A stretch of DNA of 64,000 nt, taken from the IMG/VR virus record IMGVR_UViG_3300044645_002359, positions 137,261 through 201,260 of that record; one strand, written 5' to 3'. The notes under the pieces were generated by a model. It made no database searches. It worked only from the letters and a program-made list of their open reading frames with translations, and was not told the origin of the DNA. A program made the translations under genes and the position numbers. Positions 15,452 to 33,112 of the stretch are shown piece by piece (the stretch's first letter is position 1; each line of letters starts with the position of its first letter). Source of the DNA: a virus.

Positions 15452-15469
15452 CAAATTTACTTTACTAAA

Positions 15470-17242: not shown

Positions 17243-18067
17243 ATGACTCTGCCTATTCGTTTCGAAGGGGGTGAGGATCATGTAGTCCTAATTATCAACG
17301 AAGCATACACGTTATCCACTGTTGTCACTAACCCTCTTTATCAAATGTTGAAAAGTAAAGAAAAGCGCAAAACACGCCGCGCTGAATCCGCTCAAATGGT
17401 TGAACGCTCCTACAACCGAGGCATGGATGTTGCCTCTCCGAAATTCCTCACCTGGCGGCAGGAAGAGTTTTGGAATCTACTTAAGAGAAATACCGTTACT
17501 ATTGCCGCAGGTTCGGCCGGAACAGGTAAGACTCTTATTGCTCTGCATTTCGGACTCGTTGGAGTAGCAAACGGGGACTTTGACAAAGTCTACTATGTTC
17601 GCAGCGATGTTGGAGTTGAACTGCAAAGGGGGAGAGGAGCCCTACCGGGCGAGATGTCAGACAAGATTGCCCCACTCGTAGCTCCAATATACGACAACCT
17701 TCCCTGCATCATGCGGTCTCAAGGGGCTGCCGAATACCTGCTATCCAAGAAAATTATTGAGCCGATTCTACTCGAGGACATTCGGGGCCGCTCACTAAAT
17801 AATGCTTTCATCATTGTAGATGAGGCCCAGAACTTCCTATCAGGACACTGCAAAACGGCGCTCTCTCGCGTTGGCAAAGACTCAAAAATTTGCCTCATAG
17901 GAGATACAAAACAAACAGACTTGGAAGCTTTCCGCAGAGACAACGGCTTGCTTGACGCCATTCATAGATTGAAAAATCTTGAGCAGGTTGGAATCGTGCA
18001 GTTTCAGAGAGAGGACATCGTTCGCAACTCTGTAATTGCTCACATTCTAGACAGATACGAGGATTGA
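17243..18067 (+). CDS. phoH: PhoH-like ATPase
   Basis: A 274-residue protein with the PhoH P-loop ATPase core: Walker A 'GSAGTGKT' (90-97), the phage-PhoH signature region 'VRSDVGVELQRGRGALPGEM' (119-138), Walker B 'FIIVDEAQN' (189-197) and 'GDTKQTD' (220-226). PhoH genes are common in cyanophages and other marine and freshwater phages; the ATPase is thought to act as a helicase or RNase-associated factor, but its role in infection is not settled. The gene is monocistronic, bracketed by two strong terminators, and carries its own late-type promoter, so its expression is tied to the late class and not to replication genes. Confidence 0.92.
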   Translation: MTLPIRFEGGEDHVVLIINEAYTLSTVVTNPLYQMLKSKEKRKTRRAESAQMVERSYNRGMDVASPKFLTWRQEEFWNLLKRNTVTIAAGSAGTGKTLIALHFGLVGVANGDFDKVYYVRSDVGVELQRGRGALPGEMSDKIAPLVAPIYDNLPCIMRSQGAAEYLLSKKIIEPILLEDIRGRSLNNAFIIVDEAQNFLSGHCKTALSRVGKDSKICLIGDTKQTDLEAFRRDNGLLDAIHRLKNLEQVGIVQFQREDIVRNSVIAHILDRYED

Positions 18068-18141: not shown

Positions 18142-18372
18142 ATGCAAGGTTCATTCTCTGAAGACTCCCTTAAAGTTTTCAACAAGCTTGCTTCAGCAAC
18201 TCAGGAGTTAAATTACAGCGAATCTGGAACAGATTCGTATGACTTCACCCGTTGTGTAAGGCCGAATGGCACTGCCTATGGTACCAAGGGTAAATGTAGA
18301 AAAGGTTCGGAGGAAGAAAGACAAACTTCAGAACTGCAAAAAAAATTCCCCCGAAGTAGAGGCATTGGCTAA
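18142..18372 (+). CDS. Small protein with CRKG-type cysteine motif; frame breaks at an A8 run
   Basis: The 76-residue reading frame starts 31 nt from the promoter motif. It carries 'YDFTRCVRPNGTAYGTKGKC' ending in RKG (about residues 33-55), a two-cysteine 'R.(N/D)G..YGT.GKCRKG' motif that recurs in cyanophage virion-region proteins. After residue 65 the frame runs through eight A (18338-18345) and stops shortly after. Removing one A joins it to the downstream frame (to 18778), giving a continuous 211-residue protein with a Lys/Glu-rich helical C-terminus. This is either programmed or transcriptional slippage, a homopolymer sequencing error, or a real truncation. Confidence 0.6.
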   Translation: MQGSFSEDSLKVFNKLASATQELNYSESGTDSYDFTRCVRPNGTAYGTKGKCRKGSEEERQTSELQKKFPRSRGIG

Positions 18373-18961: not shown

Positions 18962-20587
18962 GTGAGTAGTAAATTCCTGTGGCAAAGTTTCTCCTCAAGA
19001 CTTGAAAAGGCAGGTGAGGAAGCCCTAAGAGCTCTCCAGGAAGAAGCAAGAATAGAAAAGCAAACTAAAAGTGCTTCTTCCCCTGAGGGAGACCACACAA
19101 GTCTAGAGATACAAAGGGCGAAGGAAAAAGCTTCTCAGTCTTCAGGGAAAGTTAAAAAATGTTCCACAGGCAAACCTTGTTCTGCGACGTGTATTCACAA
19201 AAATGATGATTGTATATCGACTTTGCCTGCTCCCCTTGGAATTGCCTTAACAAGGCTTTCTAAAGTCCTCTCCGAGCAAGTGGGCGAAAATAGAATTTCA
19301 GAAGAACAGGCAGAAGAGGTTGTATCAAAGATAAAAAGTACAGAAGATTCTCAACTAAAGGCGTTTGACCTCTTTAAGAAACTAGTTGATTCTGGTAAAG
19401 CGTCCGAGACAGAAATGGACTCGGTCGCCAAGCTCCTTATTAGCACCACTTTGACCCCTGGCCAAGACAGAAATGCCCCTCGTGTAATGAGCTTCGACGA
19501 TATCGAGGCGGTCTTGAAGCCAGGGAAATTAGAACAGCTAGAACAAGCTTATCAAAATTCTTTCAGCTCGAAAGGGAAATTCGACCCCTCTCAGAAAGGG
19601 GGAATGGGGGATCTAATAAGTTCGAAGTACCTGGTAAATAAGGTCTCAGATGAGGTTGCAACCGCTGCTTACTATATGCTCCCCTCAAAAGTGCGGTCTG
19701 CCATAGACAAGGCGGGTGCTGTTAAAGGAGAGTCTGTAATGTTCGCCGGCAATGATAAAGACGGTAACCCTACTTTTTCTGACAAACCTTCACGAGAGAG
19801 AGGAATTTTCTTGGTTAAACGCTGGATGGAACAAGGGGAACTGGACCCTTACACAGGAAAACCCATTGACATAAGAAATGCAGAGCCGGAGCACATGGTT
19901 GCATTCGCCCATGCACTCGCAAAGGGTGGTGGTGGTGACCAACCTCGCAACCTGCTTTGGTCGGCATCTCAACCAAACAACCAAAAAGCTGGGTCAGACG
20001 ATAATTTCATGGAGTGGAAAAAACGTCTTCAAGAGTTTAAGAAAATGGGTAGAGAGGCTTACGAACGTGAAGTATATAACCCCGCTGCAAACAAAGCCGA
20101 AGAAGCCAGAGGTAAGAAGGGTTCTGCCTCCGCAGATATAGCCAAAGCTTTATCGTCTCAAACACCAGAAGAAAGAATTGCAGGAGTGAAAGGACTGATA
20201 CAGGCTTACGGGGATAAAGTTCGATATCTGGTAAGAGCGGCTGAGGTAGGCTGGCAACATCAGGATAGAGACTTAGATCACAGAATGGGTGGCAAACCCG
20301 CGTTCATGAACAACGGGGTTCCAAAACTACCCGGAACCAATGTGAAGCCGAGCACAGCGGTTTTGGTAGCATTGGCTGCTGTGGACCCTTCGAAAAAAGA
20401 AGCTCTCAAGGAAGGGTTAGAGGATTTAAGAAAAGCTCGTATTTTGACCGACGGTGAAGCGCAGTCTGTGAGGGGGGATAATAGCGCACGACTTAAACTT
20501 CAGACGCAAAAGAGTTCAGACTACGGCGAAAAATTAGCGGAATTACTGAACAACTTTGTGCCCAATATAAATGTGATATTAGAGTAA
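18962..20587 (+). CDS. HNH-type nuclease with four-cysteine tag motif
   Basis: A 541-residue protein started by GTG. An N-terminal helical region is followed by a four-cysteine motif (C67, C73, C77, C84; 'CSTGKPCSATCIHKNDDC') whose C-x5-C-x3-C-x6-C spacing is identical to that at the N-terminus of the kinase-like protein at 26849. Residues about 283-347 look like an HNH nuclease: 'DPYTGKPIDI', E310-H311 in 'EPEHMVAF', then 'RNLLWSASQPNNQKAG' with the N...N..K pattern. The usual zinc cysteines around the HNH are missing. The C-terminus (about 400-541) is helical and unassigned. It may be a late-made, virion-delivered nuclease, or a structural protein with an HNH-derived fold. Confidence 0.6.
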   Translation: MSSKFLWQSFSSRLEKAGEEALRALQEEARIEKQTKSASSPEGDHTSLEIQRAKEKASQSSGKVKKCSTGKPCSATCIHKNDDCISTLPAPLGIALTRLSKVLSEQVGENRISEEQAEEVVSKIKSTEDSQLKAFDLFKKLVDSGKASETEMDSVAKLLISTTLTPGQDRNAPRVMSFDDIEAVLKPGKLEQLEQAYQNSFSSKGKFDPSQKGGMGDLISSKYLVNKVSDEVATAAYYMLPSKVRSAIDKAGAVKGESVMFAGNDKDGNPTFSDKPSRERGIFLVKRWMEQGELDPYTGKPIDIRNAEPEHMVAFAHALAKGGGGDQPRNLLWSASQPNNQKAGSDDNFMEWKKRLQEFKKMGREAYEREVYNPAANKAEEARGKKGSASADIAKALSSQTPEERIAGVKGLIQAYGDKVRYLVRAAEVGWQHQDRDLDHRMGGKPAFMNNGVPKLPGTNVKPSTAVLVALAAVDPSKKEALKEGLEDLRKARILTDGEAQSVRGDNSARLKLQTQKSSDYGEKLAELLNNFVPNINVILE

Positions 20588-20591
20588 AACC

Positions 20592-20927
20592 ATGAGGAGA
20601 GACAACCGCTTCCCCCGTCCCGACCGCTTCACCTTGGAGCAAGGTCTACCACCCGGCACACTGAGCCACCCTCAAGCCTATGGGGTGTGGTCGATTTTCT
20701 TGCAGTGCGACGATCCTCACGACGTTGCACACAAGTTCCGTTCCTACCGTGACAGCAACTTTTGTTCAATACCCCGTGAGCAACTCCGGGCAATGAGAGA
20801 CACCTTAATTCTTGGTATGAGGGAGTCAAATAAATCCTCGGCAAAACCGCTTAAGGAAAAGCAAAAAGGTCGGCACTATGCCGACTATGAGAATGAATGG
20901 GCGGAAAAGCCCCGCACTGGTGCCTAA
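20592..20927 (+). CDS. Small basic protein, unknown
   Basis: A 111-residue protein 4 nt after the HNH-type gene. It is rich in Arg, Pro, His and Asp, with 'HPQAYGVWSIFLQCDD' and a predicted helix 'REQLRAMRDTLILGMRES'. The tail is Lys/Arg-rich then acidic. No family recognised. Tight spacing on both sides (2 nt to the next start) supports a shared operon with its neighbours. Confidence 0.55.
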   Translation: MRRDNRFPRPDRFTLEQGLPPGTLSHPQAYGVWSIFLQCDDPHDVAHKFRSYRDSNFCSIPREQLRAMRDTLILGMRESNKSSAKPLKEKQKGRHYADYENEWAEKPRTGA

Positions 20928-20929
20928 TT

Positions 20930-21295
20930 ATGACAAGTACGAAAGATAAAATTGAGGGGCAATACCGCATACCCTGTGGCCCGATGGACATCGCCGCCGA
21001 TGCAATTTGCCGCCGCTCATTGCGCGACCGTTTCGACAAGTTGCTCGATAGGCTGACTCTCGAAGTTAACCCTCACCTTCCCACCCCCGGAAAACTACCA
21101 AAAGACCTCGAAGTTTCTGATGACGGAAAAATCGTTGCGAAAAAAGAAGAGTCAGAGGAGGATCGCAGGAGAAAGCTCATTGACGAAGGAAAGTTTCGCG
21201 CAGAGGTTCACGCGGAAATCAAAAAGTACCGTGAGGACCTCCAAGGAAATGGGAAGATGCTACAGGATATCTCTGGTAAGTATGAGTCGATCTGA
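20930..21295 (+). CDS. Helical charged protein, unknown
   Basis: A 121-residue protein. I use the ATG at 20930 (MTSTKDKIEGQY), 2 nt after the previous stop, in preference to an in-frame ATG at 20897 inside the preceding gene. Features: 'IPCGPMDIAADAICRRSLRD' near the N-terminus, then a proline-rich turn and a long Lys/Glu/Arg helix. It has two cysteines and no membrane segment. No function can be read; it ends 10 nt before the next promoter motif. Confidence 0.55.
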   Translation: MTSTKDKIEGQYRIPCGPMDIAADAICRRSLRDRFDKLLDRLTLEVNPHLPTPGKLPKDLEVSDDGKIVAKKEESEEDRRRKLIDEGKFRAEVHAEIKKYREDLQGNGKMLQDISGKYESI

Positions 21296-21305
21296 GTCTT
21301 TCTAA

Positions 21306-21315
21306 GGGTAAAGTT
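21306..21315 (+). promoter_or_regulatory. Late-type promoter motif GGGTAAAGTT
   Basis: Full-consensus copy exactly 31 nt before the ATG at 21337. Confidence 0.85.
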
Positions 21316-21336
21316 ACTCAGTCTACAAACTATACA

Positions 21337-21924
21337 ATGTCCAACAGAATCAACGGTGACTTTGACTCTGACTCGATTGAAGCCTTCAGAGCAGCGTACG
21401 CAGCACAAATCCTAGAACCGGAAGACCAAGAGACAGACCAATACACTGGTCTACCCACAAACTTGGTCCTAAATACTTCCCCTTGGCTACAACACACAGG
21501 ACTGTGGAAAGCGAACGACGGCACGAACAAGGACTTCCAACCGAACCAAGTTCTGGTACCCGGCTTAGAAAATTCTGAGGAAGAAGGCGAGTACGACGAA
21601 CTTGACGATCTCTCTGAAGAAGAACTCGAAGAACTTATCGACCAGCTTCTAGCCGACGAAGGCGACGACGACGACGACGAGGAGGAAGACCTGACCTATT
21701 ATGAAGAAGATGGGGATGAGGACGAGCTTTCCGATGAAGAAGTTGAAAGGTTGATTGAGGAGCTTTTGAGTGAAGATGATGAAGAAATTTTCTTGTCAGA
21801 TGAAAATGAATACGAGGGAGAAGAAATAGAAGAACAGGAAATTACTGACGAAGAGATAGATGCCCTGATTGCAGAGATTGAAGCTGAATCCGAAGAGCTT
21901 AATTACGATCCTGAAGAAGATTGA
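21337..21924 (+). CDS. Highly acidic protein with three helical repeats
   Basis: A 195-residue protein. Residues 1-75 are ordinary and aromatic ('QYTGLPTNLVLNTSPWLQ'). The rest is almost all Asp/Glu and contains three copies of a helix: 'LSEEELEELIDQLLADE', 'LSDEEVERLIEELLSED' and 'ITDEEIDALIAEIEAE', separated by pure acidic linkers. The pI must be extremely low. Such acidic proteins in phages can be capsid scaffolds, DNA mimics or charge-balancing inner-head proteins; the repeat itself looks like a short docking helix that could bind three copies of a partner. Function unknown. Confidence 0.6.
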   Translation: MSNRINGDFDSDSIEAFRAAYAAQILEPEDQETDQYTGLPTNLVLNTSPWLQHTGLWKANDGTNKDFQPNQVLVPGLENSEEEGEYDELDDLSEEELEELIDQLLADEGDDDDDEEEDLTYYEEDGDEDELSDEEVERLIEELLSEDDEEIFLSDENEYEGEEIEEQEITDEEIDALIAEIEAESEELNYDPEED

Positions 21925-21931
21925 GGTAACA

Positions 21932-22243
21932 ATGGCAACGTTCAATGAAAGAGCTTTTCTCATACGTGCATTAGCTGGAATTTTCGTAGTTCAATTTATT
22001 ACGGTAGGTTACCAAACTTGGTCCTGCCAGTCTTCTGCCACCCAGAATAAAGACTCAACTCAGGTCACTCTTATTTGCAACAATGCCACAAATTCTTTTA
22101 ACGAGACCGGAAAACTTGCTCTAACAACGATTCTTGCTCTCCTGGTTCCTTCCTCGGGTCAAAACGTTTCTGAAATTCTTGATTCGGTGAGAGGAAACCG
22201 CAAACGTAAAGGTGAGGACGAAAATCAAGAGGGTAAAGTTTAG
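21932..22243 (+). CDS. Small membrane protein, possible holin-like
   Basis: A 103-residue protein with GAGG Shine-Dalgarno before ATG 21932, so longer in-frame starts inside the acidic gene are unnecessary. One clear transmembrane segment ('ALAGIFVVQFITVGY', about 13-27), a polar Cys/Asn middle, a second weaker hydrophobic stretch ('LALTTILALLVP', about 63-75) and a positively charged tail ('RGNRKRKGED'). Size, two hydrophobic segments and charged C-terminus fit a class II holin or an anti-holin, but no lysis enzyme is adjacent. The last three sense codons contain the next gene's promoter motif. Confidence 0.55.
   Translation: MATFNERAFLIRALAGIFVVQFITVGYQTWSCQSSATQNKDSTQVTLICNNATNSFNETGKLALTTILALLVPSSGQNVSEILDSVRGNRKRKGEDENQEGKV
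22231..22240 (+). promoter_or_regulatory. Late-type promoter motif embedded in the 3' end of a gene
   Basis: GGGTAAAGTT is read as G-K-V plus part of the stop of the membrane-protein gene (GGT AAA GTT TAG) and lies exactly 31 nt before the ATG at 22262. Confidence 0.8.
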
Positions 22244-22261
22244 GATCACTGTAGTGTCTTT

Positions 22262-23236
22262 ATGTACGGAGCTAATTTAGATTTTTCTTCTGTGTCTTTG
22301 CCAGGGGTCGGGGGTTCTCTCAATGCAGCTACCGCCATATCCTCCGACAAACTTCAGGAAATGAATCGCACTGGCAAAAAATGGCGCACCGATAAAGACG
22401 GTAACATGTCTTTCCATAACGAAGCCATTTTGGACGCCAATAAAGCAAGTCGCGAACGAAGGGAAAACTTGGTAAATCGTGACCGAGACGCCCATGCAGA
22501 CGGTCAAGCGGCGATGAAAGAAATTTTCGGCCGAAAGAAAGCCCGGATGGAAGCCTTTCGAGAAATAAAAAGAAACGAATACAACTTTGCCGACGACACG
22601 GAACTAATGTCAATGCCACAACCTTTCGGTGAGGGTTGTTCTACAAGTTGCAAAAGCCCTGGAAAGTGTTCTTGCTCTTCCTGTAAAGCAAAAGCGAAAG
22701 CTGACTCAGAATTTCGTGAATGGACCACAGAAAAGCGCAAGAAACTTCAAACCGGTGAGGCGAAAGGGGAATTCGCCGGCCCGGGAATGTCGTTCCCGAT
22801 CGCAAGTCCAGAGGACGTTTCAGCCGCTTGGTCCTCTGTAGGACGGGCAGCGAACCCCCGTAAAATCATGGCAGAAATCATTCGCATTGCTAAGAAGTAT
22901 GGCTGGGAATCTGGCCTACCTCAGACGGTTAAAGATCGCATGGAAGAGGGTGAGTCCGGTCTACCGTCCCCTGACTTTCGTGAATGGCCTTCAACAAAGA
23001 GGGAAGCTATGAAAAAAGGCGACATTGTCGGACAATTCGCTGGCCCAGGAATGTCCTTTCCCATCGCAAGTCCACAAGATGTTTCGGCAGCTTGGTCTTC
23101 CGTTGGCCGAGCTTCAAATCCTCGCGAAACAATGGCTAAAATTATTGCAATCGCTAAGAAAAACGGCTGGGAGTCTGGACTCCCTCAGACAGTTAAAGAC
23201 CGCCTGAACGCAGGTCAGTCAGGATTACCGAGGTAA
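22262..23236 (+). CDS. Protein with Cys cluster and duplicated C-terminal domain
   Basis: A 324-residue protein. Residues 1-120 are helical and basic; residues 124-142 hold a cysteine cluster (C126, C130, C136, C138, C141). Then come two copies of an 85-residue domain (151-235 and 239-323) with the core 'FAGPGMSFPIAS', 'DVSAAWSSVGRA', 'IAKK.GWESGLPQTVKDR'. The core resembles small 'SFPI...DV..A' domains found in many phage and plasmid proteins (DUF6582-type, from memory). Copies are offset by 88 residues (264 bp) and closely similar, a recent internal duplication. Expressed from its own late promoter; likely virion-associated by context. Confidence 0.6.
   Translation: MYGANLDFSSVSLPGVGGSLNAATAISSDKLQEMNRTGKKWRTDKDGNMSFHNEAILDANKASRERRENLVNRDRDAHADGQAAMKEIFGRKKARMEAFREIKRNEYNFADDTELMSMPQPFGEGCSTSCKSPGKCSCSSCKAKAKADSEFREWTTEKRKKLQTGEAKGEFAGPGMSFPIASPEDVSAAWSSVGRAANPRKIMAEIIRIAKKYGWESGLPQTVKDRMEEGESGLPSPDFREWPSTKREAMKKGDIVGQFAGPGMSFPIASPQDVSAAWSSVGRASNPRETMAKIIAIAKKNGWESGLPQTVKDRLNAGQSGLPR
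22712..23230 (+). repeat. Tandem duplication, 264-bp period, inside the 22262 gene
   Basis: Two copies start at 22712 and 22976 and encode the 'FREW...SGLP' domain. Protein identity is roughly 70 percent by eye, with blocks such as the 20-residue core beginning 'FAGPGMSFPIAS' nearly unchanged, while synonymous positions differ, so the duplication is not brand new and is kept under selection. Confidence 0.9.
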
Positions 23237-23240
23237 GAAA

Positions 23241-23612
23241 ATGGGTTTAGTTGAAATTCCTCTAATCATTGCCGGTTGGTTTCTCACAGCAGGAATAGCA
23301 GGAGTAGGCGGAACTTTTGCCATTCAGGGTCGGAACAATAAGAGATTAGACACACTAAGGAGTAACTCTGATAAGAAAATTGAAAGACTTATCGAGGAAA
23401 ATGACAAGAGAATTAACACTTTGATTGCTGCCAATACCCTCCAAAATGAGAACGTATTAAATCATATTAAGAACGTAGAAAAGGCTCTTAATGACATGAG
23501 AGCCGAATTACCGGAAAAGTACACTCTCAAGTCCGACCACTTAAGATTGGTAGACAAAGTAGAAGAGTTGTCGATACAGTTCTACAGACATAGAGAGAAA
23601 GAAGGTGAGTGA
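23241..23612 (+). CDS. Single-pass membrane coiled-coil protein (holin/spanin-like candidate)
   Basis: A 123-residue protein with a GAGGTAAG Shine-Dalgarno. Residues 6-28 are a glycine-rich transmembrane segment ('IIAGWFLTAGIAGVGGTFAI'), followed by about 90 residues of charged coiled coil ('KKIERLIEENDKRINTLIAA', 'NVEKALNDMRAELPEKY'). The 'MRAELPEKYTLKSDHLRLVD' part resembles small phage proteins found next to lysis genes. Topology (short N-terminal anchor, long soluble coiled coil) fits an inner-membrane spanin or a holin-associated factor. Its last 8 nt overlap the next gene's GTG start. Confidence 0.55.
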   Translation: MGLVEIPLIIAGWFLTAGIAGVGGTFAIQGRNNKRLDTLRSNSDKKIERLIEENDKRINTLIAANTLQNENVLNHIKNVEKALNDMRAELPEKYTLKSDHLRLVDKVEELSIQFYRHREKEGE

Positions 23613-24117
23613 GAGCTACGACTGGCACCGGCTGGAAGGTTTGGGTTTTGACCTGAACTACATTGAAAAGGCACTTCCTGCCTCATACAAAAAAGGTCTA
23701 ACTGCACGAGAGCAAGGTGTCGCTAAGCGTGAAGCGAAAGATACTATGGAGAAGGCCAGCAGCAAGAAAACCTCGGCGAAAGAATTGTATAAAGACTGGG
23801 AGTCGGATAAGAGTTTCCGGAATAGGGAAAAAGAGATACCGAAGTCCCCAGCCACAGAAGCATTTGAGCGCGACTTTGCTGAGTCTTCCCCTTCCGACAC
23901 AGCCCTTAAGAACAAGTCAAAAAAGTCCGGCATCCCTATGCCTATACTGAGACAAGTGTTTAAGAGAGGAATGGCAGCTTGGAGGTCTGGTCACCGTCCT
24001 GGTGTTGCACCGCAGCAATGGGCTCAGGCAAGAGTGTCAAGTTTCATCACGGGAGTGGGAGGAGCACGGAAGGCTGATGCCGACCTTTGGAAAAAAGCTA
24101 AGGGTAAAAAACATTAG
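23605..24117 (+). CDS. Phage DUF5824-like protein
   Basis: A 170-residue basic protein started by GTG at 23605, overlapping the upstream stop. The N-terminal half is a Lys/Ser-rich disordered region; the C-terminal 75 residues carry a well-conserved phage pattern: 'KKSGIPMPILRQVFKRGMAA' then W-R-x-G-H-R-P-G, 'PQQWAQARVSSFITG' and 'KADADLWKKAK'. I know this block (DUF5824, name from memory) from many virion-region proteins of cyanophages and other large phages; its function is not established. The 3' end includes a GGGTAAAA motif for the next gene. Confidence 0.65.
   Translation: MSESYDWHRLEGLGFDLNYIEKALPASYKKGLTAREQGVAKREAKDTMEKASSKKTSAKELYKDWESDKSFRNREKEIPKSPATEAFERDFAESSPSDTALKNKSKKSGIPMPILRQVFKRGMAAWRSGHRPGVAPQQWAQARVSSFITGVGGARKADADLWKKAKGKKH
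24102..24111 (+). promoter_or_regulatory. Possible late-type promoter motif GGGTAAAAAA inside gene end
   Basis: Lies in the final codons of the DUF5824-like gene, 32 nt before ATG 24134. Spacing fits the series, but positions 9-10 are off consensus, so confidence is lower. Confidence 0.45.
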
Positions 24118-24133
24118 TTTAGAACTTAGAGAA

Positions 24134-24502
24134 ATGAGTAACTTGGGATCTTTTTCTCCGGAAGCTTACAGAGCTTACAAATATGGGGTTGAAAACCCGA
24201 GTAATTTCATGGGAATTGCTCCTGCATTCGAGGCAGAACCAGGGAGAAACCCTGATTCTTTTTCCATGGGCGAAGATGACGAGACTGACGAAGACGATTA
24301 CGATCCAGATTACGGGAACGAGGACTTTGAGCCGAACGGGGGCATGGCTATGACCCAACTTCGCTCTATGCAAGATAACATCGAGACTATTCTTGAAATG
24401 ATCGGTCCCTACTCAAACTTAGACCCCTGGATGGCTGCAAAGTTGGCCGAGGCTGAGCATGGTATGACAGCGATCGCCGACGCTTTACAATACAGAGATT
24501 GA
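24134..24502 (+). CDS. Small acidic phage protein with conserved C-terminal helical domain
   Basis: A 122-residue protein; the ATG at 24134 (MSNLGSFSPEAYRAY) is preferred over upstream in-frame codons lying inside the previous gene. An acidic linker (about 60-75) precedes a conserved helical unit: 'MTQLRSMQDNIETILEMIG' and 'LDPWMAAKLAEAEHGMTAI'. The pattern 'QLR......(I/L)......L.PW...K(I/L)..AE......(V/I)...' is widespread in phages, often in capsid-region genes and sometimes fused to other proteins, with no known activity. It is coupled to the next gene (overlap at the TTG/TGA junction). Confidence 0.6.
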   Translation: MSNLGSFSPEAYRAYKYGVENPSNFMGIAPAFEAEPGRNPDSFSMGEDDETDEDDYDPDYGNEDFEPNGGMAMTQLRSMQDNIETILEMIGPYSNLDPWMAAKLAEAEHGMTAIADALQYRD

Positions 24503-24507
24503 TCAAA

Positions 24508-24867
24508 ATGTGGGGATCTTTCTTACAATCTGCTTATGATTCTTTCCTGGAAGCGGCTATAGAAAAGTACGTTGAGAAAGTTGACAAAAATTCACTAGAT
24601 TGCAATGACCCCCACGCCACTCCGAGTCACCCTACGAAATCTCACATAGTTAAAGCGTGCTATCCTGGAGCCCCGAAAGGTGGCAAGCTGATTCGATTCG
24701 GTCAACAAGGTGTGAAAGGGTCGCCAAAGAAAGAAGGGGAATCGGAGGCTTATAAAGCCAGACGAGAGGCTTTCAAGGCAAGACATGCTGCTAATATTGC
24801 GAAGGGTAAGTCTTCAGCTGCCTACTGGAGTAATCTGGAAGAATGGGCGGAAGACATTAAGTGGTAG
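24508..24867 (+). CDS. Small basic phage protein with RFG/RH/W signature
   Basis: A 119-residue protein using ATG 24508; a TTG at 24499 overlapping the upstream stop is an alternative that would add three residues. After an N-terminal helix it has 'DCNDPHATPSHPTKSHIVKA' with two cysteines nearby, then 'KLIRFGQQGVKGSP', 'KARREAFKARHAANI' and 'SSAAYWSNLEEW'. The order RFG..G, F.aRH, aaYWs...W is a recurrent phage module in virion-region genes. DNA-binding or metal-binding is possible given His/Cys/Arg content but not shown. Confidence 0.6.
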   Translation: MWGSFLQSAYDSFLEAAIEKYVEKVDKNSLDCNDPHATPSHPTKSHIVKACYPGAPKGGKLIRFGQQGVKGSPKKEGESEAYKARREAFKARHAANIAKGKSSAAYWSNLEEWAEDIKW

Positions 24868-24876
24868 GGTATAATT
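24867..24876 (+). promoter_or_regulatory. Late-type promoter motif variant GGGTATAATT
   Basis: TATAAT-containing variant of the motif, 33 nt before the ATG at 24900. It overlaps the stop of the preceding gene. Confidence 0.7.
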
Positions 24877-24899
24877 CAGGTTGTAATCAACCTTAAACA

Positions 24900-25598
24900 A
24901 TGAAACACAACCACAGAATACTGCCCGGCCACATGGGAGGCGAGTACGTAGAAGGCAATGTTATACCTGTACAAGTAACTCAGTGTGACACTAACACTGC
25001 CAACCATGTAATGTGGCACTTTGCCAACTGGTGCCTTTATGGTAAAGAAGAAGATCGAGCAGCCTATAAAGGTTTATCAGGTTGTTATAGTAAAGAAAAA
25101 ATTATCGAGGAGAGGTTGAGACTAGCTGGTCAAATGCATGTCGATTCCGGCCACATTCAAGAAATAGGCAGGATTAACGGTAAGAGAGCCATGTCTCCGG
25201 GTGGATGGTTATACATGAACAGAATAGAATATGGGCGTTTAGGCTACAAATCAGGGATAGGAAAGTCGGAAAACAGGTTAACAGGGGAACAACTATCTGA
25301 GTTGGCTAAAAAGACTTGGAGAGAAGGGAAAGGTTTGGCAGCTTTAACTCCTGAGCAAAGAAGCGAAATAGGAAAAAGAGCTGGCAAAATTAGTGGACAA
25401 GTGAACAGAGAAAATAAAACAGGGGTTTGCGGAATTCCTCCAGAAGAACACTCCAAAAGAATGTCCGAAACGAACCGTCAAAAATGGCAATGTCCCGTGT
25501 GTGGTTTAATTGGTAATGCCAAGCAAATAAACGCGCATATGGCAGCTGAACATAATCTCGATAAAAAAGCCAAAATTAAGTGTAACTCTAACCACTAG
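24900..25598 (+). CDS. Free-standing HNH homing endonuclease
   Basis: A 232-residue mobile-type nuclease. The HNH region is at the very N-terminus: 'HNHRILPGHMGGEYVEGNVI' (His pair, GG and the N-V/I strand), then 'NTANHVMWHFANW' and 'DRAAYKGLSG', which is the standard H..i.p.h.GG....N.v / H...H / A...LsG order of phage HNH endonucleases. The middle has NUMOD-like helices ('LTPEQRSEIGKRAGK'), and the C-terminus is a C2H2 zinc finger ('CPVCGLIGNAKQINAHMAAEH') that would contact DNA. The reading frame is intact and has its own promoter variant, so the element may be active. Confidence 0.8.
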   Translation: MKHNHRILPGHMGGEYVEGNVIPVQVTQCDTNTANHVMWHFANWCLYGKEEDRAAYKGLSGCYSKEKIIEERLRLAGQMHVDSGHIQEIGRINGKRAMSPGGWLYMNRIEYGRLGYKSGIGKSENRLTGEQLSELAKKTWREGKGLAALTPEQRSEIGKRAGKISGQVNRENKTGVCGIPPEEHSKRMSETNRQKWQCPVCGLIGNAKQINAHMAAEHNLDKKAKIKCNSNH

Positions 25599-25600
25599 GA

Positions 25601-25610
25601 GGGTAAAGTT
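25601..25610 (+). promoter_or_regulatory. Late-type promoter motif GGGTAAAGTT
   Basis: Full-consensus copy exactly 31 nt before the ATG at 25632, two bases after the HNH stop. Confidence 0.85.
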
Positions 25611-25631
25611 CACTGACAGCAATCTCTAAAC

Positions 25632-26255
25632 ATGCAAGGAAATTTCGGTATCCCAAATATAGACCACCTGGTAGAAGGAGTTCACTACCACATTGTAGAT
25701 TGGGACTTTGCAGACCCTGCTCCTGCAGCCCCGACACCTACCCCTCCTCACAATCCGGGTGAATCGTGCCCACCAAATCAAAAAATGGTCTTCGGGGTAT
25801 GCCGCCGCGTGAATGCTAGCGGAGAACAACAAGTAGGAGACGACACTGACCAGGAAAGATCCCTAAAAGACCAAGCTAAGAAAGAAGGCTCGGCTTTTGA
25901 GAATAACAAGGCAATGAGTGCCGGTGGTAAGAAGTACGGTTGGGCTATGAAAGGTGGAAAACCGGTAATGGTGGCTTGGGGATCTGTAGCAGGTGAGAAA
26001 AAAGTTGGGCTCAAGAAGCCTGCTTCTGCGGCTCCACCTACCGCGCTCACCGGTTCCCCCGCTCCACGCGCTGGAGCATCCCCTGCACCCGCTAGAGCTG
26101 GTTCCCCAGCTCCAACTACAGCTCCAACAGCCCCAATATCAGCTACTGATAGAGCTGCTTATAACGCAGGAGGGGGCAATGCCGCAGCGCAAAGAGGCAC
26201 GGGGCGAACTACTGAGCAAGTTATAGCTCAAGGTAAGAAAATTTGGATAGACTAG
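25632..26255 (+). CDS. Pro/Ala-rich protein with paired Cys motif, unknown
   Basis: A 207-residue protein. The N-terminus ('NIDHLVEGVHYHIVDWDF') is followed by a Pro-rich linker, a two-cysteine segment 'GESCPPNQKMVFGVCRRV' (C-x10-C), a small folded patch with 'KKYGWAMKGGKPVMVAWG', then a long Ala/Pro/Ser/Thr-rich low-complexity linker and a short C-terminal helix. The layout (cysteine motif, linker, mini-domains) resembles other proteins of the 18-28 kb cluster. Extensive linkers suggest a tether or disordered virion protein. No enzyme motif seen. Confidence 0.5.
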   Translation: MQGNFGIPNIDHLVEGVHYHIVDWDFADPAPAAPTPTPPHNPGESCPPNQKMVFGVCRRVNASGEQQVGDDTDQERSLKDQAKKEGSAFENNKAMSAGGKKYGWAMKGGKPVMVAWGSVAGEKKVGLKKPASAAPPTALTGSPAPRAGASPAPARAGSPAPTTAPTAPISATDRAAYNAGGGNAAAQRGTGRTTEQVIAQGKKIWID

Positions 26256-26288
26256 ATCAGGGTAAGGGTAGGCGCTGATACGAATAAA

Positions 26289-26297
26289 GGGTAAGTT
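26289..26297 (+). promoter_or_regulatory. Promoter motif variant GGGTAAGTT (one A missing)
   Basis: Located 42 nt before the ATG at 26331. A near-identical variant occurs at 60726. A second GGGTAAG lies at about 26259. Lower confidence because of the deleted base and longer spacing. Confidence 0.5.
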
Positions 26298-26330
26298 ACA
26301 ATTAACAGACATACTCTCCCCACTTGGCAA

Positions 26331-26852
26331 ATGTATAACCCAAGACCCTTAGACTTAGATACATTCTCAGAACAAGAGTTGCAAATCGAAGGGTACACTC
26401 ATATGCCCACGGATTATTACAGGAACACCGTCATGGAGCCTGAAACCGTCTCCACATTAAGACCGAGTTTCGGAGAGTATGAAGCCATGGGAGAGAGGCA
26501 CGAGGAAATCTCTTCTAAGATTGACTTACTCAATCAAGCAATGAAACTTTCCCGTCAGAGGGGGGCTTTTCAAGAGTTGCAGAATCAAATGGCTGCCGTC
26601 AAGAAACTTGTAAAAGAGCGTGAAGAAATTGATGCAAAAATGGCCACTGTTGACCTTGCCCGAAAGAAAACAGATGACCACAACATTGCTGCCGGTATGG
26701 AAACTTCTTACACAGAGCAACTGGATTCGGTAAACTCTCGCATCAACCGTTTACAAAAGCTTCTTCAGGACTTCAGTGAGTCCATGGGAGAAGGTGAGTT
26801 TGACTTTACTCGTAACGGTCGTAAAGGCAAAGCCTGTGAGGAGACACAATGA
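26331..26852 (+). CDS. Coiled-coil protein, unknown, coupled to kinase-like gene
   Basis: A 173-residue protein. Residues 1-55 are Pro/Glu-rich and extended; residues 55-150 form a strong coiled coil ('EISSKIDLLNQAMKLSRQRG', 'LVKEREEIDAKMATVDLARK', 'VNSRINRLQKLLQDFSESMG'). The tail 'FDFTRNGRKGKACEE' looks like a shortened form of the DFTR...GKC motif of the 18142 protein. Its stop overlaps the start of the kinase-like gene (ATGA), so the two are made together; a partner or adaptor for the kinase is a reasonable inference. Confidence 0.55.
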   Translation: MYNPRPLDLDTFSEQELQIEGYTHMPTDYYRNTVMEPETVSTLRPSFGEYEAMGERHEEISSKIDLLNQAMKLSRQRGAFQELQNQMAAVKKLVKEREEIDAKMATVDLARKKTDDHNIAAGMETSYTEQLDSVNSRINRLQKLLQDFSESMGEGEFDFTRNGRKGKACEETQ

Positions 26853-28129
26853 GGCGCTGCTCGAAAGGAAAAAGCTGCGGAGGAACTTGCATCAACCGCA
26901 ACGTTAAATGCAGAGCCACTTTGTCTCCGAAAGTATCAAAGCAGGTTGAGGAAGCGGGCGACATCTTCCTCCGTTTGGTTAACGAGGATAAAAAACCGAG
27001 TTTGATTGTACAAAGGCTGATTGACGCCTTAGGGTTGGGCCCACTAACTCAAAGAGAAGTTGGCAATGACTTTCCCGTCTTAAAGAGGGAGGCAGAACGC
27101 CAACTCGCTGAGTTGCGCAGCCAACCCTCTATGACAGATGAGGAGATTGATCGGGCCAAACGACTTGAAATGGCTCTTATGGATGCTTGGGAAAAGCATA
27201 CTAAGGCCGACCGCATGGTACTCTACGATCGACAGGACGCTCGAGAGTTTGACCATGATTTCATTCCTACCGACAAATTCGGCAAAGATTATGACTGGTC
27301 TCAGTCTTACGAATCTGGTGCCAAAGGTTTGGGCTCAGGAAGCTACGGAAACGTTATGCTCTCTAAACCACCACCGGCTCTTGTAGTGAAGAGAGGAGAA
27401 GTGAGTGAAAGTGAGGTTAAAATTCTAGAAAAGTTAAACGGTAAAGACATTTCTCCGAAGTTCGTTTCAGCGGAGGTCAACAAATACACCGTTATGGCGC
27501 GAGAAGGGGATATAGAATTCTACGAAGGAAGAATTGCAATGACACGGGTTCCGGGTAAAGCCGTAGAAGATTTTGATGACAATGATCCCGCATACGGGAC
27601 GAAGGTCGGAAGTACAACTCTTGGAGACGCTTATTTTCTTCTTCGTAGGAGACTTCACGAAAGCGGAGTTGCCCATAATGACTCTCACATAGAAAATGTC
27701 ATTGTAGATAATAAGGGGAAAGCACGCTTCATTGATTTCGGGCTTTCTCAGGACGACCCTAGAGCAGCTCTATCAGAGGCCATTGGCATACTTGCAGATC
27801 GAAAATTGCTTCCTCAAGGTGTTGTACTAAAACGAGTTTTAGATGATTTTTCCGGGGACCGAAAAGGAAGGAAATATAAAGCTTACACCCAACCCATAAA
27901 AGACCTTCTTAAGGGTGGCACCAATACCAACCTCGAAAAGGTTGTTCGTAATCGCACTAAAGTATACGCAGAGCTTGCAAAGCTAGGTTTATCCAAGGAT
28001 GAGATAGCTGAGCTTGTGGTTCATGAGTTAAACCAGCCCATCAGCTCCTACAACAAAGGTGCCTGGTCCAAAGTAAGCAAAAAAGATGCAATGCGGATTA
28101 TCCCCCTACTCTACGAAGGCGTAAATTAA
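26849..28129 (+). CDS. Protein-kinase-like protein with N-terminal four-cysteine motif
   Basis: A 426-residue protein. C4, C10, C14 and C21 ('RRCSKGKSCGGTCINRNVKC') have the same spacing as the motif in the HNH-type protein at 18962. The kinase fold is visible: glycine loop 'GLGSGSYGNV' (160-169), candidate lysine in 'VVKRGE' (K181), conserved Glu in the following helix (near 189), catalytic loop 'HNDSHIENV' (H276, D278, N283) and metal-binding 'DFG' (296-298). His280 stands where Lys is usual, as in aminoglycoside-kinase-like and other bacterial small kinases. The C-terminal 110 residues are helical. Likely phosphorylates a host protein or small molecule; target unknown. Confidence 0.8.
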   Translation: MRRCSKGKSCGGTCINRNVKCRATLSPKVSKQVEEAGDIFLRLVNEDKKPSLIVQRLIDALGLGPLTQREVGNDFPVLKREAERQLAELRSQPSMTDEEIDRAKRLEMALMDAWEKHTKADRMVLYDRQDAREFDHDFIPTDKFGKDYDWSQSYESGAKGLGSGSYGNVMLSKPPPALVVKRGEVSESEVKILEKLNGKDISPKFVSAEVNKYTVMAREGDIEFYEGRIAMTRVPGKAVEDFDDNDPAYGTKVGSTTLGDAYFLLRRRLHESGVAHNDSHIENVIVDNKGKARFIDFGLSQDDPRAALSEAIGILADRKLLPQGVVLKRVLDDFSGDRKGRKYKAYTQPIKDLLKGGTNTNLEKVVRNRTKVYAELAKLGLSKDEIAELVVHELNQPISSYNKGAWSKVSKKDAMRIIPLLYEGVN

Positions 28130-28342: not shown

Positions 28343-31300
28343 ATGTCAGCAAAACGAATAATCCTGAAGCGTTCTTCAATCGCAGGAAAGCGTCCAACTT
28401 CAGAAAACCTCTCTCCCGGCGAACTCGGACTAAATACGAATAGCGTAGAACCGGGCATTTTCTTCGAAGCAACCGACGGTCAGATAGTCAAAGCGGGTCC
28501 TCCTGCTGTACTGCCTTACTCTCCAACCAACTTTCCTGAAAAGGGGGAATTGTGGTACGACCTGGAAGACGGAACCCTAAATGTAGGCGACGCTGAGAAA
28601 CACTGGCGCACCGTAGCCGCTCCTTTCTTAGGGGGCGGAGGAAGCGTAGTATTTGTCGCGCCCGAGTTTGAGTACTCAACGGACTCTCTAAGGAATGACG
28701 GGCAAGCTCTGCCCTTCCAAACTCTAACCCGTGCAATACTTGAATTATCCAAAATATATATAAGCCGCGTTTTAACTGGCTTTTCAACTTCGGATGAGAG
28801 CAACCGCTACACAATTTTCCTATCGTCCTCAGTAATTACAGCGAACAACGGCCCAGGAGTCAGCCTTAACGACTTCACCGTAAATTTTTCCTCTTCAACA
28901 GAAACAGCGGTCACAATTCCACAACTCCAGCAGTTTAACCCTGTTGAAGGGGGTATTATGGTACCTTTCGGTATTTCCATCCGGGGCTTGGATCTGAAAA
29001 AGTGTATAATTTCTCCCTCTTACGTTCCAACTTACTTAAACCCTTCCTTCCCTCCAGCTTCTCAGGGTGTAGACCAACCCCTGAGTTCAATCCTTAAGTG
29101 TGGAGGAAATGTTCTAGCCAACGACTTTTCTGTTATTGATAAGTTGAGATCGAGAGTAGTAATTTCAGTATCGGATAAAAATGGCCTAGCCGTCTTTGAC
29201 TCAGAAAGACCCCATTGCCTCGGCTTCAACGATCTTGTATCCGTTAATTTTGAGCCCACCGTAGATCAGAGCACTGGAACTTTCACTGCTGGAAATTACT
29301 ACGCGATACCACTAAACACTTATAGTTTCTACCTTTCCTACGGCTCTCAAACTGAAAATCCTGCAGCGGAATACGTTCCATTCGCAGCTTTGCCACTTTC
29401 AGGTTCTGGTAAAACTCCTAAACTTTTAGTGACAAACACACTCAAGTCGTCTCACAGGTTGAAAGTTTTTGAAAATGCTACTCTGGCAGACATTGGCGAT
29501 TACTTCACAAAAGTACAAAGAGCTTTTCCAGACTTCTTTGGTGGCAGAGTTACAGAGGGTTCTAGTATAGTAAACAGCGGAGACTACGTAATTGTGGGTC
29601 CGGTTGATACTTATCCAAATAACGAAGGGTCCAACACAACTAAAAACTCGTCTTTCTACGCAAATCAAGTTAACTTGAGATCTGAATACGGAATGAATTG
29701 GGGAGACTTTGATGGCTCCATAGTTTCCGGATTCAAGTCAGTGATCGCGAATGCTTGCACAGCGATTTCTCTTCAAAATGATCCTTGTGTGTACGAAATT
29801 TACACAACGTTGGTGAACCCTGCTACCGGACTCCCTGAGCAAAAGTGGTGGAATTTAACCGAAGCAAAGTTCTTGTCCACTCCTGTCGAACTTCGCCCCT
29901 CTTCAATAGCCGATGTTCCTGTTCCTGAACAGCTCTCTCTACTCAACTCAACACCCATAAACAACATACGCTACTATTACAAGAACCTGACTGAACCTGG
30001 AGGGGCAAGCATAGGAATTGTTGACATTGAAAGAGATTTCCGGCACTTCGGGTTCAGAGTAAGGAACGGTGCCTACGGCCAATTCCAATCGGTTTACAGC
30101 ATTGGACCCGCAATCGGTGTTTGGGCCTTGAATGGTGGTATTTGTAGCTTAACAAATAGTACGACAAACTTCGGATCAGTTGCCTTTAAGACCGAAGGTT
30201 TCCTTGGAATTAACACCATTGGAGGGGCAAAGCCCAACGGAAAGGGTTTCGTTTTAGAGGGTGTTCAAAGACCTTTGGCGCTTCTGAAGTCACAAGTAGA
30301 GAGCCAAGATAATAAGAAAATTCTTTCTCTCGGTGGCAAAATCTCCTCTATCTACATCGACCCTGAGGACCCGAACATACAAATTTTAGGGTTAAACTCG
30401 GACTTCTTACCTTGCTATTTGTTGCCTTATTCATTGGCACCTGGCACTGCACTATGGGTAGAAACTGAGTCTTGTACCTACAGGGGTTTTCTAGCCACAG
30501 ATGGCGGTCCCACAATTATAACAGGTTTGGGAGACCCCATCAATTTCGCTAAGATTAGACTCAGATCTTCAGACAGCACTATTCCGAATGACGAAGGTCT
30601 TCTTCCAGTCTTGGGGGTTCCTTACATTAGAAGATTTATAGACCCGCGACTTGACTTTGAGAGGTCTTACAGTCTTTTTATTCGTAACACCCTTCCAAAC
30701 GCAATCGCGCCCCAAGTCGGTTCAGTTCTGCGCCTAAACCAAACTAGCCAGCAACTGGGGTCTGTTTCATTGAGGCCCAACGTACAATTTGACCCTGGAA
30801 TCTTGGGGGGATGGGGAAGAATTTTTACAGTCGACGCAACCGAGACCGGTGGGCAAGGCTCTTCCCCCCAATTCAACTACGTTATAGGAGACAGCAACCA
30901 AGACCTTACCTATTACGTTGCTATTACGACCACGGATTACAGTCGTCCCTGGGGGCAAGGTCCGAACTTTGATCTTCCCGCCGGTTCTTACACAACGTAC
31001 AGGAATAGAAATTGGTACTCAGCCGAAAACAACCTATGGGGTTGTGTTTATTACGGAGATGCTTCTAGTTTCACTGATAGCTTCGGACCTTTCTCAGTCG
31101 CTCCTGTCGAATCTTGCTCACCCTTCGTAGATACGAGTGTTTTAGAGAGGCAAGACAGAGTCTCAGAGACTTTTCAAGGTTCTTATGCTGCGGATTCCTA
31201 CCTAGCCTTGGAAGGTTATCTGGAACAAACATATTTTAGGGGGGCAACAGAGCCTTACCCAACTTACTCCTCTCAGAATGTATACGATGGAGACGATAGC

Positions 31301-33112
31301 ACCGAAGGGTTAGGATTATGTTTGAAAGACTTGGCGGACGGCGAAGTAACTTACACCGTTTCAGAATTGGTAGAGATACAGTCAGAGCAACAGGCGACTT
31401 TGACTCCAGTTCCGCAAAGATACCGTCCCGCAATAGTAGAGTTCTCCGTTCTATCCTCGGTAAACATTGAAAACCCTCGTCAAACAGCTTCCGTCCTGAG
31501 ACTCAGCTCTGTGTCAGGAGTTGAATACATTCGAGTGATAAATCTGAATGGAACCGTTGTTCGAGGTATTCGTTTAACCTATGAAAATGGCTACTACCCC
31601 ACAACTTTACCAGGGAACGATTGGCCTCAACAAACCACAGTAACAGTTTGCAGTACAAATCCAATCCCTCAGACCGAACTTTACGATCCTGACTGGATAA
31701 ACACGAAGAGGGCCGTATACCGATTCTTCGAAGTTATGGGATACTCTCAAAGCGTCATGAAGCCTTATCTTACCCCGAAGTACTGGGGTGAACGTTTACT
31801 ATCGGTACTCTCTTTAACCGGAAATCTTCCGATTAACGGGTATGCATTGACGACAGATAAGTGGCCCCTTGAGTTTAACCAGCCCTCGATTGTAATTGCA
31901 AACACTCACACTTGGGCTTACGCAGGGTACTACAATTATTCTCGTGGTCTCCCTGAGTTCCAGAGTAACGATTTCACGAGAAAGTTAGCCACGGACTACC
32001 AAGCTACAACTACATGGAGCGGAAGACTTACGGTAACAGGGGTGAACGACAAGGGAGAAATTGTACAGTTTGGTCCTCAGCGTCAGGCTCTCACTGCGAA
32101 CTATTACGAATCTACTGCTCCAATTGTAAACCCGAGCAATCAGCAAATCTATGAAGAACAACCTTATGTTGAATTCCCCTCACAAGTTGTTGTTTACTCT
32201 GCCGACGACTTCTCGTCAAGTTTCGATGGCTCTCAATCAACTTTCGATTTAACTCGCAGTGGTTTAGCAATTCCTCCGGATCAGCTGCTTGCAGAGTCAA
32301 TGTTAGTGACACTCGGTGCTTCCGTTCAAAAACCTTACCAAGACTACATACTTATTGGGAACAGAATTCAATTCACAACTCCCCCCGTAGCCGGTTTGTC
32401 GAGCAACGTTCGAATCATAACTAGCGTTGACTCAAGCCGAACTCTAACGGTCGCTACATTAGCTTTCGTTGAAACCTTCGATGGGGCAAGAACTACTTTC
32501 ACTGCTAATATTCCGTCTGATCCGGCTTCTCTGATCCCTTTGGAGATCACTGCTAACAACACTTTCGTTTTCTTGGGTGGCGTTGAGCAAATTCCTCTCT
32601 CAAATGTGAACCCTTCTCTACCGTTCTCGTACTCGGTAGAAAGAACTTCTCCAACGACAGTTCAATTCTCTTTCACAGGTGTACCTCCTACGGGCACTAC
32701 TCTCGACGTGAGAGCTATTTGTTCTGGCTCCTACTGGTCTCTACGTTCAACTTTCCCTGTGGAAGTTTATTCCCTCGATGACATCAGCAGTGAATTTAAT
32801 GGGGCTCAGACCTCTTTCACTCTGAAGTATGGGGGGAAAGTTGTAAACGCAGCGACTGTAACTGCTGATAACCTTCTGCTAAGCTTAGGGGGCGCCGTTC
32901 AGATTCCGGGAGTTTCTTACACAGTTGAAAACTCAGTTCTAACCTTCTTGGATTCCACGGATGCCCCTCAGCCCGATACTCTTGTGAACTTGAGGGTAAT
33001 TACAAACGCCGAATTCATTTTCTGCCCAAACCAGGGTAAGTATGGAAGCAGCTTTTTGCGTTGGGGTCCTGGCATAGTCCTGACGTTGGCTAACGAAGCA
33101 GGCCTGCTGTGA
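28343..33112 (+). CDS. Giant tail-fibre/adhesin protein 1
   Basis: A 1589-residue virion protein. It opens with the short module typical of cyanophage fibres ('ILKRSSIAGKRPTSENLSPG', 'GELGLNTNSVEPGIFFE'), which probably anchors to the baseplate. A large beta-helix/pectate-lyase-like part follows, with 'NRYTIFLSSS', 'GISIRGLDLKKCIISPSYVP' and 'GVWALNGGICSLTNSTTNFG' also recognisable in fibre 2. The last 350 residues contain two or three copies of a 'D(D/F)....FDG(A/S)(Q/R)T.F.L' beta domain (near 1285, 1373, 1475). No peptidase or collar domain is visible. Function: host recognition. Its own late promoter and a following promoter make it monocistronic. Confidence 0.8.
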   Translation: MSAKRIILKRSSIAGKRPTSENLSPGELGLNTNSVEPGIFFEATDGQIVKAGPPAVLPYSPTNFPEKGELWYDLEDGTLNVGDAEKHWRTVAAPFLGGGGSVVFVAPEFEYSTDSLRNDGQALPFQTLTRAILELSKIYISRVLTGFSTSDESNRYTIFLSSSVITANNGPGVSLNDFTVNFSSSTETAVTIPQLQQFNPVEGGIMVPFGISIRGLDLKKCIISPSYVPTYLNPSFPPASQGVDQPLSSILKCGGNVLANDFSVIDKLRSRVVISVSDKNGLAVFDSERPHCLGFNDLVSVNFEPTVDQSTGTFTAGNYYAIPLNTYSFYLSYGSQTENPAAEYVPFAALPLSGSGKTPKLLVTNTLKSSHRLKVFENATLADIGDYFTKVQRAFPDFFGGRVTEGSSIVNSGDYVIVGPVDTYPNNEGSNTTKNSSFYANQVNLRSEYGMNWGDFDGSIVSGFKSVIANACTAISLQNDPCVYEIYTTLVNPATGLPEQKWWNLTEAKFLSTPVELRPSSIADVPVPEQLSLLNSTPINNIRYYYKNLTEPGGASIGIVDIERDFRHFGFRVRNGAYGQFQSVYSIGPAIGVWALNGGICSLTNSTTNFGSVAFKTEGFLGINTIGGAKPNGKGFVLEGVQRPLALLKSQVESQDNKKILSLGGKISSIYIDPEDPNIQILGLNSDFLPCYLLPYSLAPGTALWVETESCTYRGFLATDGGPTIITGLGDPINFAKIRLRSSDSTIPNDEGLLPVLGVPYIRRFIDPRLDFERSYSLFIRNTLPNAIAPQVGSVLRLNQTSQQLGSVSLRPNVQFDPGILGGWGRIFTVDATETGGQGSSPQFNYVIGDSNQDLTYYVAITTTDYSRPWGQGPNFDLPAGSYTTYRNRNWYSAENNLWGCVYYGDASSFTDSFGPFSVAPVESCSPFVDTSVLERQDRVSETFQGSYAADSYLALEGYLEQTYFRGATEPYPTYSSQNVYDGDDSTEGLGLCLKDLADGEVTYTVSELVEIQSEQQATLTPVPQRYRPAIVEFSVLSSVNIENPRQTASVLRLSSVSGVEYIRVINLNGTVVRGIRLTYENGYYPTTLPGNDWPQQTTVTVCSTNPIPQTELYDPDWINTKRAVYRFFEVMGYSQSVMKPYLTPKYWGERLLSVLSLTGNLPINGYALTTDKWPLEFNQPSIVIANTHTWAYAGYYNYSRGLPEFQSNDFTRKLATDYQATTTWSGRLTVTGVNDKGEIVQFGPQRQALTANYYESTAPIVNPSNQQIYEEQPYVEFPSQVVVYSADDFSSSFDGSQSTFDLTRSGLAIPPDQLLAESMLVTLGASVQKPYQDYILIGNRIQFTTPPVAGLSSNVRIITSVDSSRTLTVATLAFVETFDGARTTFTANIPSDPASLIPLEITANNTFVFLGGVEQIPLSNVNPSLPFSYSVERTSPTTVQFSFTGVPPTGTTLDVRAICSGSYWSLRSTFPVEVYSLDDISSEFNGAQTSFTLKYGGKVVNAATVTADNLLLSLGGAVQIPGVSYTVENSVLTFLDSTDAPQPDTLVNLRVITNAEFIFCPNQGKYGSSFLRWGPGIVLTLANEAGLL

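Follow-up and report, generated by a model that had tools for sequence, protein, structure and literature searches.

The question raised by this locus is why two enzymes of unrelated kind, encoded in one phage genome, should bear the same small four-cysteine module. The window analyzed here is a stretch of 64,000 nucleotides, bases 137261-201260 of the 201-kb phage record IMGVR_UViG_3300044645_002359. The two proteins are an HNH-nuclease-like protein encoded from position 18962 of the window and a protein-kinase/APH-like enzyme encoded from position 26849 (Table 1). A first-pass annotation had called the motif identical on the two proteins. It placed both copies correctly, and their spacing, C-x5-C-x3-C-x6-C, is the same, but only 12 of 24 residues are identical. 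The pattern C-x2-GK-x-C-x3-C-[IV]-x5-C occurs exactly twice in the window and never in 100 dinucleotide shuffles, and a related cysteine pattern has exactly two matches in the whole record. We consider it probable that this Cys4 module is a portable virion-cargo, or encapsidation, tag of a large phage group related to S-CBWM1, a Synechococcus phage and the closest isolate found. The tag is most likely the functional counterpart of the capsid-targeting sequence (CTS) of phage T4.

The identities of the two proteins differ in how directly they can be read. The 26849 protein is kinase-like, in line with the first-pass annotation. Its Pfam matches to Pkinase (E 5e-5) and APH (E 2e-4) both lie below the curated cut-off, its main Foldseek matches are all protein kinases, and its family alignment keeps G164, G167, K181, D278 and D296 invariant, covering the glycine loop, the catalytic lysine, HxD and DFG of the kinase superfamily. 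For the 18962 protein, the putative HNH-type label rests on relatives. The protein itself has no HNH match in the Pfam scan, and Foldseek is uninformative. However, HNH_4 is above the Pfam cut-off in one relative (L028), the family alignment that includes the 18962 protein has invariant D295, E310, H311 and N330, and the protein resembles gp12 of phage S-CREM2, which is annotated as Cas9-like (E 3e-6). In the Pfam scan, both window proteins lack a MuF domain (PF04233 or related).

The Cys4 module is found on five proteins of S-CBWM1, namely, gp106 and gp174 of the HNH family and the kinases gp113, gp161 and gp162. In both genomes, PhoH is followed by a tagged HNH-type gene (18962 here and gp106 in S-CBWM1). 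The 18962 protein is closest to gp174, which adjoins the capsid gene in S-CBWM1 and is annotated as a virion structural protein, and the 26849 kinase matches gp113 in genomic place. According to PMC10665884, the APH, ChoK and Rio2 kinases of S-CBWM1 are present in virions; from their annotated names, we equate these with gp162, gp161 and gp113, respectively. The fourth kinase, PknB-like gp173, is untagged and is not named among the virion-detected kinases (PMC10665884). The S-CBWM1 NMNAT (gp39), reported in virions (PMC10665884, PMC9602691), bears a second type of cysteine tag, CRKG. In both gp113 and gp161, the start as annotated lies past the tag or within it, a possible reason for the tag having been overlooked so far. 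Pfam, PHROG and NCBIfam give no match on the tag in the scanned proteins except sub-threshold PDGF/VEGF look-alikes, and the searchable literature describes no such tag, in line with the earlier statement that it had no described role. Searching the PDB with a profile of the tag gave no match; a PDGF match in the PDB was rejected as a chance cysteine pattern. Searches by tblastn with 12 tag variants returned only weak matches for further isolate phages. The Aphanizomenon phage CL131 carries one tag in gp047 and four Cys4 copies plus one two-Cys copy in gp048, a protein of 1.8 kilo-residues with several alpha/beta-hydrolase family matches at three separate places. Both genes lie upstream of the tape measure gene.

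The correctly spaced pattern occurs in at least 119 stretches of viral contigs, versus 1 when the last cysteine is placed one codon further. This single match and the 3 and 16 matches to two other cysteine spacings were treated as chance. The matches form two classes, small, apparently secreted bacterial proteins and larger phage proteins. Tagged phage cargo includes kinases, HNH_4 nucleases, ADP-ribosyltransferases (ARTs; L114 in alignment A2 looks like one of these rather than a kinase), a zeta toxin, DnaJ, hydrolases, an LPD1 protein (match just below the cut-off) and a portal-tag-ART fusion. The tag is carried by several unrelated enzyme folds, and the detection of such proteins in virions comes from the papers of others. 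One phage protein of 1,597 residues (L230 1069-5859) contains one Cys4 tag, three two-Cys tags and at least two kinase-like domains.

Tag frequencies were taken only from loci retrieved by the kinase or HNH body, with the tag unused; the loci of alignments A2 and A3 were picked by the tag pattern, which in part accounts for the tag being nearly invariant there. Retrieval by the kinase domain gave 70 relatives, of which 29 have a Cys4 tag (24 strict and 5 loose), 19 a CRKG tag and three a two-Cys version of the tag. About 11 belong to a group with a fused MuF domain, which Pfam (PF04233) confirmed in five; L205, L207, L213 and L226 are examples with this domain. All eight relatives retrieved by the HNH body are Cys4-tagged. 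The kinase tree requires at least 10 changes of the N-terminal module, a count that is approximate because the tree is a quick one with long branches. The kinases of L202 (two-Cys tag) and L180 (CRKG) are 62% identical and can be aligned from just behind their tags, affording a near-direct view of what appears to be a tag swap. Zeta toxin is likewise paired with Cys4 in L116 and with MuF in L207 (E 4e-15). Delivery into the capsid, one of the roles the first-pass annotation had offered, is the reading best supported by these module swaps and by the tagged S-CBWM1 enzymes reported in virions (PMC10665884, PMC9602691), although that the tag itself drives packaging is our inference.

The first-pass annotation had also noted a related two-cysteine form on the 18142 protein. 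This CRKG element is real but belongs to a distinct sequence family. The CRKG module may be a second tag that does the same job in the same phages, and the NMNAT relatives of L239 and L240 carry it. An [FY]xE element lies within 14 residues upstream of the CRKG tag in 25 of 34 cases versus 7% of background windows, and the protease-scaffold protein has sequences like it; the elements before the tags may be prohead-protease sites. The reading frame at 18142-18372 ends in an A8/C5-rich stretch and is overlapped by one in another frame at 18266-18778. This interruption (18142-18778) could be a sequencing indel, a pseudogene or programmed frameshifting. Four further CRKG-tagged proteins are encoded elsewhere in the same record: an ART-like protein (L153 10424-11203; Pfam match below the cut-off), a 530-residue protein with a YRGV motif (L154 7253-8842), an NMNAT-like protein (L155 6136-6783) and a small one (L155 12527-12856).

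We propose that enzymes of early infection (kinase, HNH nuclease, ADP-ribosyltransferase, zeta toxin and alpha/beta hydrolase) bear the tag, usually at the N-terminus, and that it would bring about their uptake into the prohead. The Cys4 tag with its flanks has a mean net charge of +4.8 over ~27 residues, and the protease-scaffold proteins have net charges of -84 and -66. The small, strongly basic tag probably binds the very acidic protease-scaffold core, or else DNA. The tagged enzymes would then enter the host with the genome. The Cys tag would thus play the part taken by the CTS in T4-like phages and by a fused MuF minor head protein in others. A more ambitious version, which we put forward tentatively, is a modular loading code unrelated to that of T4, in which Cys tags (Cys4 or two-Cys, and CRKG) would each be sufficient, freely exchanged and locked by disulfides rather than metal.

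The cysteines themselves bear on what the tag is. In loci picked without the tag pattern, C1 and C3 are both present in 46 and both absent in 9, and neither occurs singly (one further chance match was set aside). Two-Cys variants persist with F, Y, G or H at C3, whereas C2 and C4 are retained. The joint loss of C1 and C3 disfavors an obligatory four-cysteine metal site, and their joint presence or absence is more readily explained by paired disulfides than by zinc binding at an obligatory site. Two disulfides, C1-C3 and C2-C4, could therefore staple a loop, and the tag might work only in the oxidized particle or periplasm, for example, as an anchor or to give protection during ejection. This chemistry, compatible with an encapsidation tag, is possible but doubtful. 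The bacterial look-alikes appear secreted, hence in an oxidizing location, and CRKG would be a one-loop, two-Cys tag. However, the cyanobacterial cytoplasm is reducing, as it would be during assembly, and AlphaFold gives no confident fold for the tag.

The tag could instead act after entry, as an element that targets or binds DNA, RNA, membrane or some protein of the host, with packaging achieved by something else. Long proteins in which multiple tags are interspersed between catalytic domains fit this idea, as do a basic charge able to bind nucleic acid and the tag of L104, located between a portal and an ART-like domain. It is nevertheless unlikely, because the tag is interchanged with the MuF head domain and parallels the T4-type CTS, both known or proposed for head location, and because the short tagged kinases pass directly from tag to enzyme, with no separate packaging element seen on them.

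Still less probable is an ordinary zinc-knuckle accessory domain that stabilizes or regulates the enzymes and has no trafficking role. Four cysteines in a short basic module suggest such a domain, and small zinc sites are common in phage enzymes. However, the same module sits on unrelated folds, a kinase with 62% identity has an unlike tag in place of the whole module, and the persistence of two-Cys variants, with C1 and C3 lost jointly, means that the four ligands expected of a zinc knuckle or ribbon are not all conserved. These observations weaken the shared metal-binding adaptor suggested at first. Nor was the pattern broad in cellular zinc-knuckle families, a distribution named beforehand as counting against a special role: in the one bacterial phylum sampled, 1 of 299 genomes matches. 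Chance or convergent cysteine-rich stretches with no common function can be dismissed; short motifs do recur randomly, as in the PDGF look-alike, but the empty shuffles, the collapse upon displacing the last cysteine and the conserved residues between the cysteines all speak otherwise.

Several points weigh against an encapsidation tag. All the evidence at hand concerns the tag together with its cargo, and causality between tag and packaging is to that extent inferred. The virion proteomics of S-CBWM1 is taken second-hand from later papers, and the S-CREM2 authors caution that abundant enzymes may co-purify with virions. The tag of L104 would be unneeded for packaging because fusion to the portal would assure it anyway. 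Several tags per chain, as in CL131 gp048 and L230, exceed what a simple packaging signal needs, and a pure packaging signal does not fully explain either these chains or the portal-tag-ART fusion. The AlphaFold model leaves the tag at a pLDDT (predicted local distance difference test) of about 43-57, and small bacterial proteins that look secreted have a core like that of the tag.

To our knowledge, little is known about how head-carried enzymes are chosen in phages outside T4 and MuF systems. If the Cys4 module is an encapsidation tag, the set of injected effectors could be read straight from the genome, the kinases and NMNATs repeatedly found in cyanophage virions would be accounted for, and there would be a means of getting proteins loaded into phage particles. 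Tagged kinases, nucleases and toxin-like enzymes recur across many freshwater viruses, and the prediction is testable in the culturable phage S-CBWM1.

The window's record is, judged by its genes, a cyanophage-like myovirus, because it shares with S-CBWM1 a gene order (terminase, PhoH, four small genes and a baseplate wedge gene) as well as genes for portal, protease-scaffold (gp170 in S-CBWM1) and capsid proteins. The gene for the major capsid protein is interrupted and extends from L159 16062-18600, which immediately precedes the window, to window position 632; Rfam identifies group I introns in this region at L159 16062-16358 and 17520-18283. Two terminase-large-subunit homologues stand in tandem at 13688-16867, with 57% and 29% identity to S-CBWM1 gp103. 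Between the tagged genes, FPIASPEDVSAAW repeats with a weak DUF6582 match (22262-23236) form a module that recurs in contigs with Cys4 tags, DUF5824 (23605-24117) is also found at the end of a cytidyltransferase PHROG, and the recurrent RHAANIAKGKSSAAYW module (24499-24867) is present also in contigs with Cys4 tags.

Table 1. Features of the window, with S-CBWM1 counterparts given as gp numbers
Feature	Coordinates	Strand	Remarks
Major capsid protein gene, 3' part	27..632	+	63% identity to gp175
Terminase large subunit (late/head block common with S-CBWM1)	13688..15451	+	57% identity to gp103
PhoH-like protein	17243..18067	+	Syntenic with gp105, 58% identity
Small CRKG-tagged protein, apparently frameshift-interrupted	18142..18372	+	
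CRKG tag CVRPNGTAYGTKGKCRKG	18253..18306	+	Type on virion-detected NMNAT of S-CBWM1
HNH-nuclease-like protein, 541 aa, Cys4-tagged	18962..20587	+	Counterpart of gp174, 45% identity over 90%
Cys4 tag, residues 67-84 of 18962 protein, KKCSTGKPCSATCIHKNDDCISTL / CSTGKPCSATCIHKNDDC	19160..19213	+	
Protein-kinase/APH-like enzyme, 426 aa, N-terminal Cys4 tag	26849..28129	+	Syntenic with gp113 (RIO-like kinase)
Cys4 tag, residues 4-21 of 26849 protein, RRCSKGKSCGGTCINRNVKCRATL / CSKGKSCGGTCINRNVKC	26858..26911	+	
Putative baseplate wedge protein	28343..33112	+	Syntenic with gp116, 45% identity over ~1,570 residues

The T4-like cyanophage S-CREM2 allows a comparison of cargo. Table 3 of its paper places four enzymes in the virion: a kinase, an HNH protein of Cas9-like type, a cytidylyltransferase and a SAM hydrolase. 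Besides gp12, its homologues of tagged cargo are the kinase gp14 (E 7e-11) and the NMNAT gp154 (E 4e-4). Three of the four virion enzymes (kinase, cytidylyltransferase and SAM hydrolase) have a T4-CTS-like start, approximately MK-x-F-x-x-F-L-x-E. The pattern M-x-x-[FY]-x-x-F-[LI]-x-E, composed after inspection of the S-CREM2 proteins, begins only four open reading frames in that genome, all virion-detected, and no such N-terminus was found in S-CBWM1 or the 201-kb record. These homologues and starts suggest that homologous cargo carries a T4-type signal there and a Cys tag here. The CTS-like proteins of S-CREM2 correspond to L146 3837-12846 and L148 11609-12469, and no mention of this marking was found in the accessible text of its paper.

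The internal proteins of T-even phages are diverse and have only the CTS in common (PMC3012670). Like the CTS (PMC3012670), the Cys tag is a short element on otherwise unrelated proteins that probably act early and are carried in the head. Unlike it, the Cys tag is cysteine-based, basic and not always at the extreme N-terminus, and it has no sequence likeness to the CTS. The small, secreted-looking bacterial proteins (CCKxCxxGKxCGxSCI...GCACDG) have the same C-x2-GK-x-C-G-x2-C-I-x5-C core, but they differ in having an apparent signal peptide, extra cysteines and no enzyme domain. Polyvalent phage proteins (Iyer et al. 2017, PMC5512222) are likewise virion-carried and include ART, zeta-toxin and kinase effectors; these are multidomain, whereas a single enzyme domain in a short chain is the rule for most tagged proteins. 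The word cysteine is absent from that survey (PMC5512222). The MuF polymorphic toxins share with the tagged proteins an N-terminal delivery part, swappable enzyme domains and the same kinase and zeta-toxin cargo, and the MuF protein gp7 of SPP1 binds the portal (PMC5576092). MuF, however, is a full structural domain, whereas the Cys tag comprises ~20 residues.

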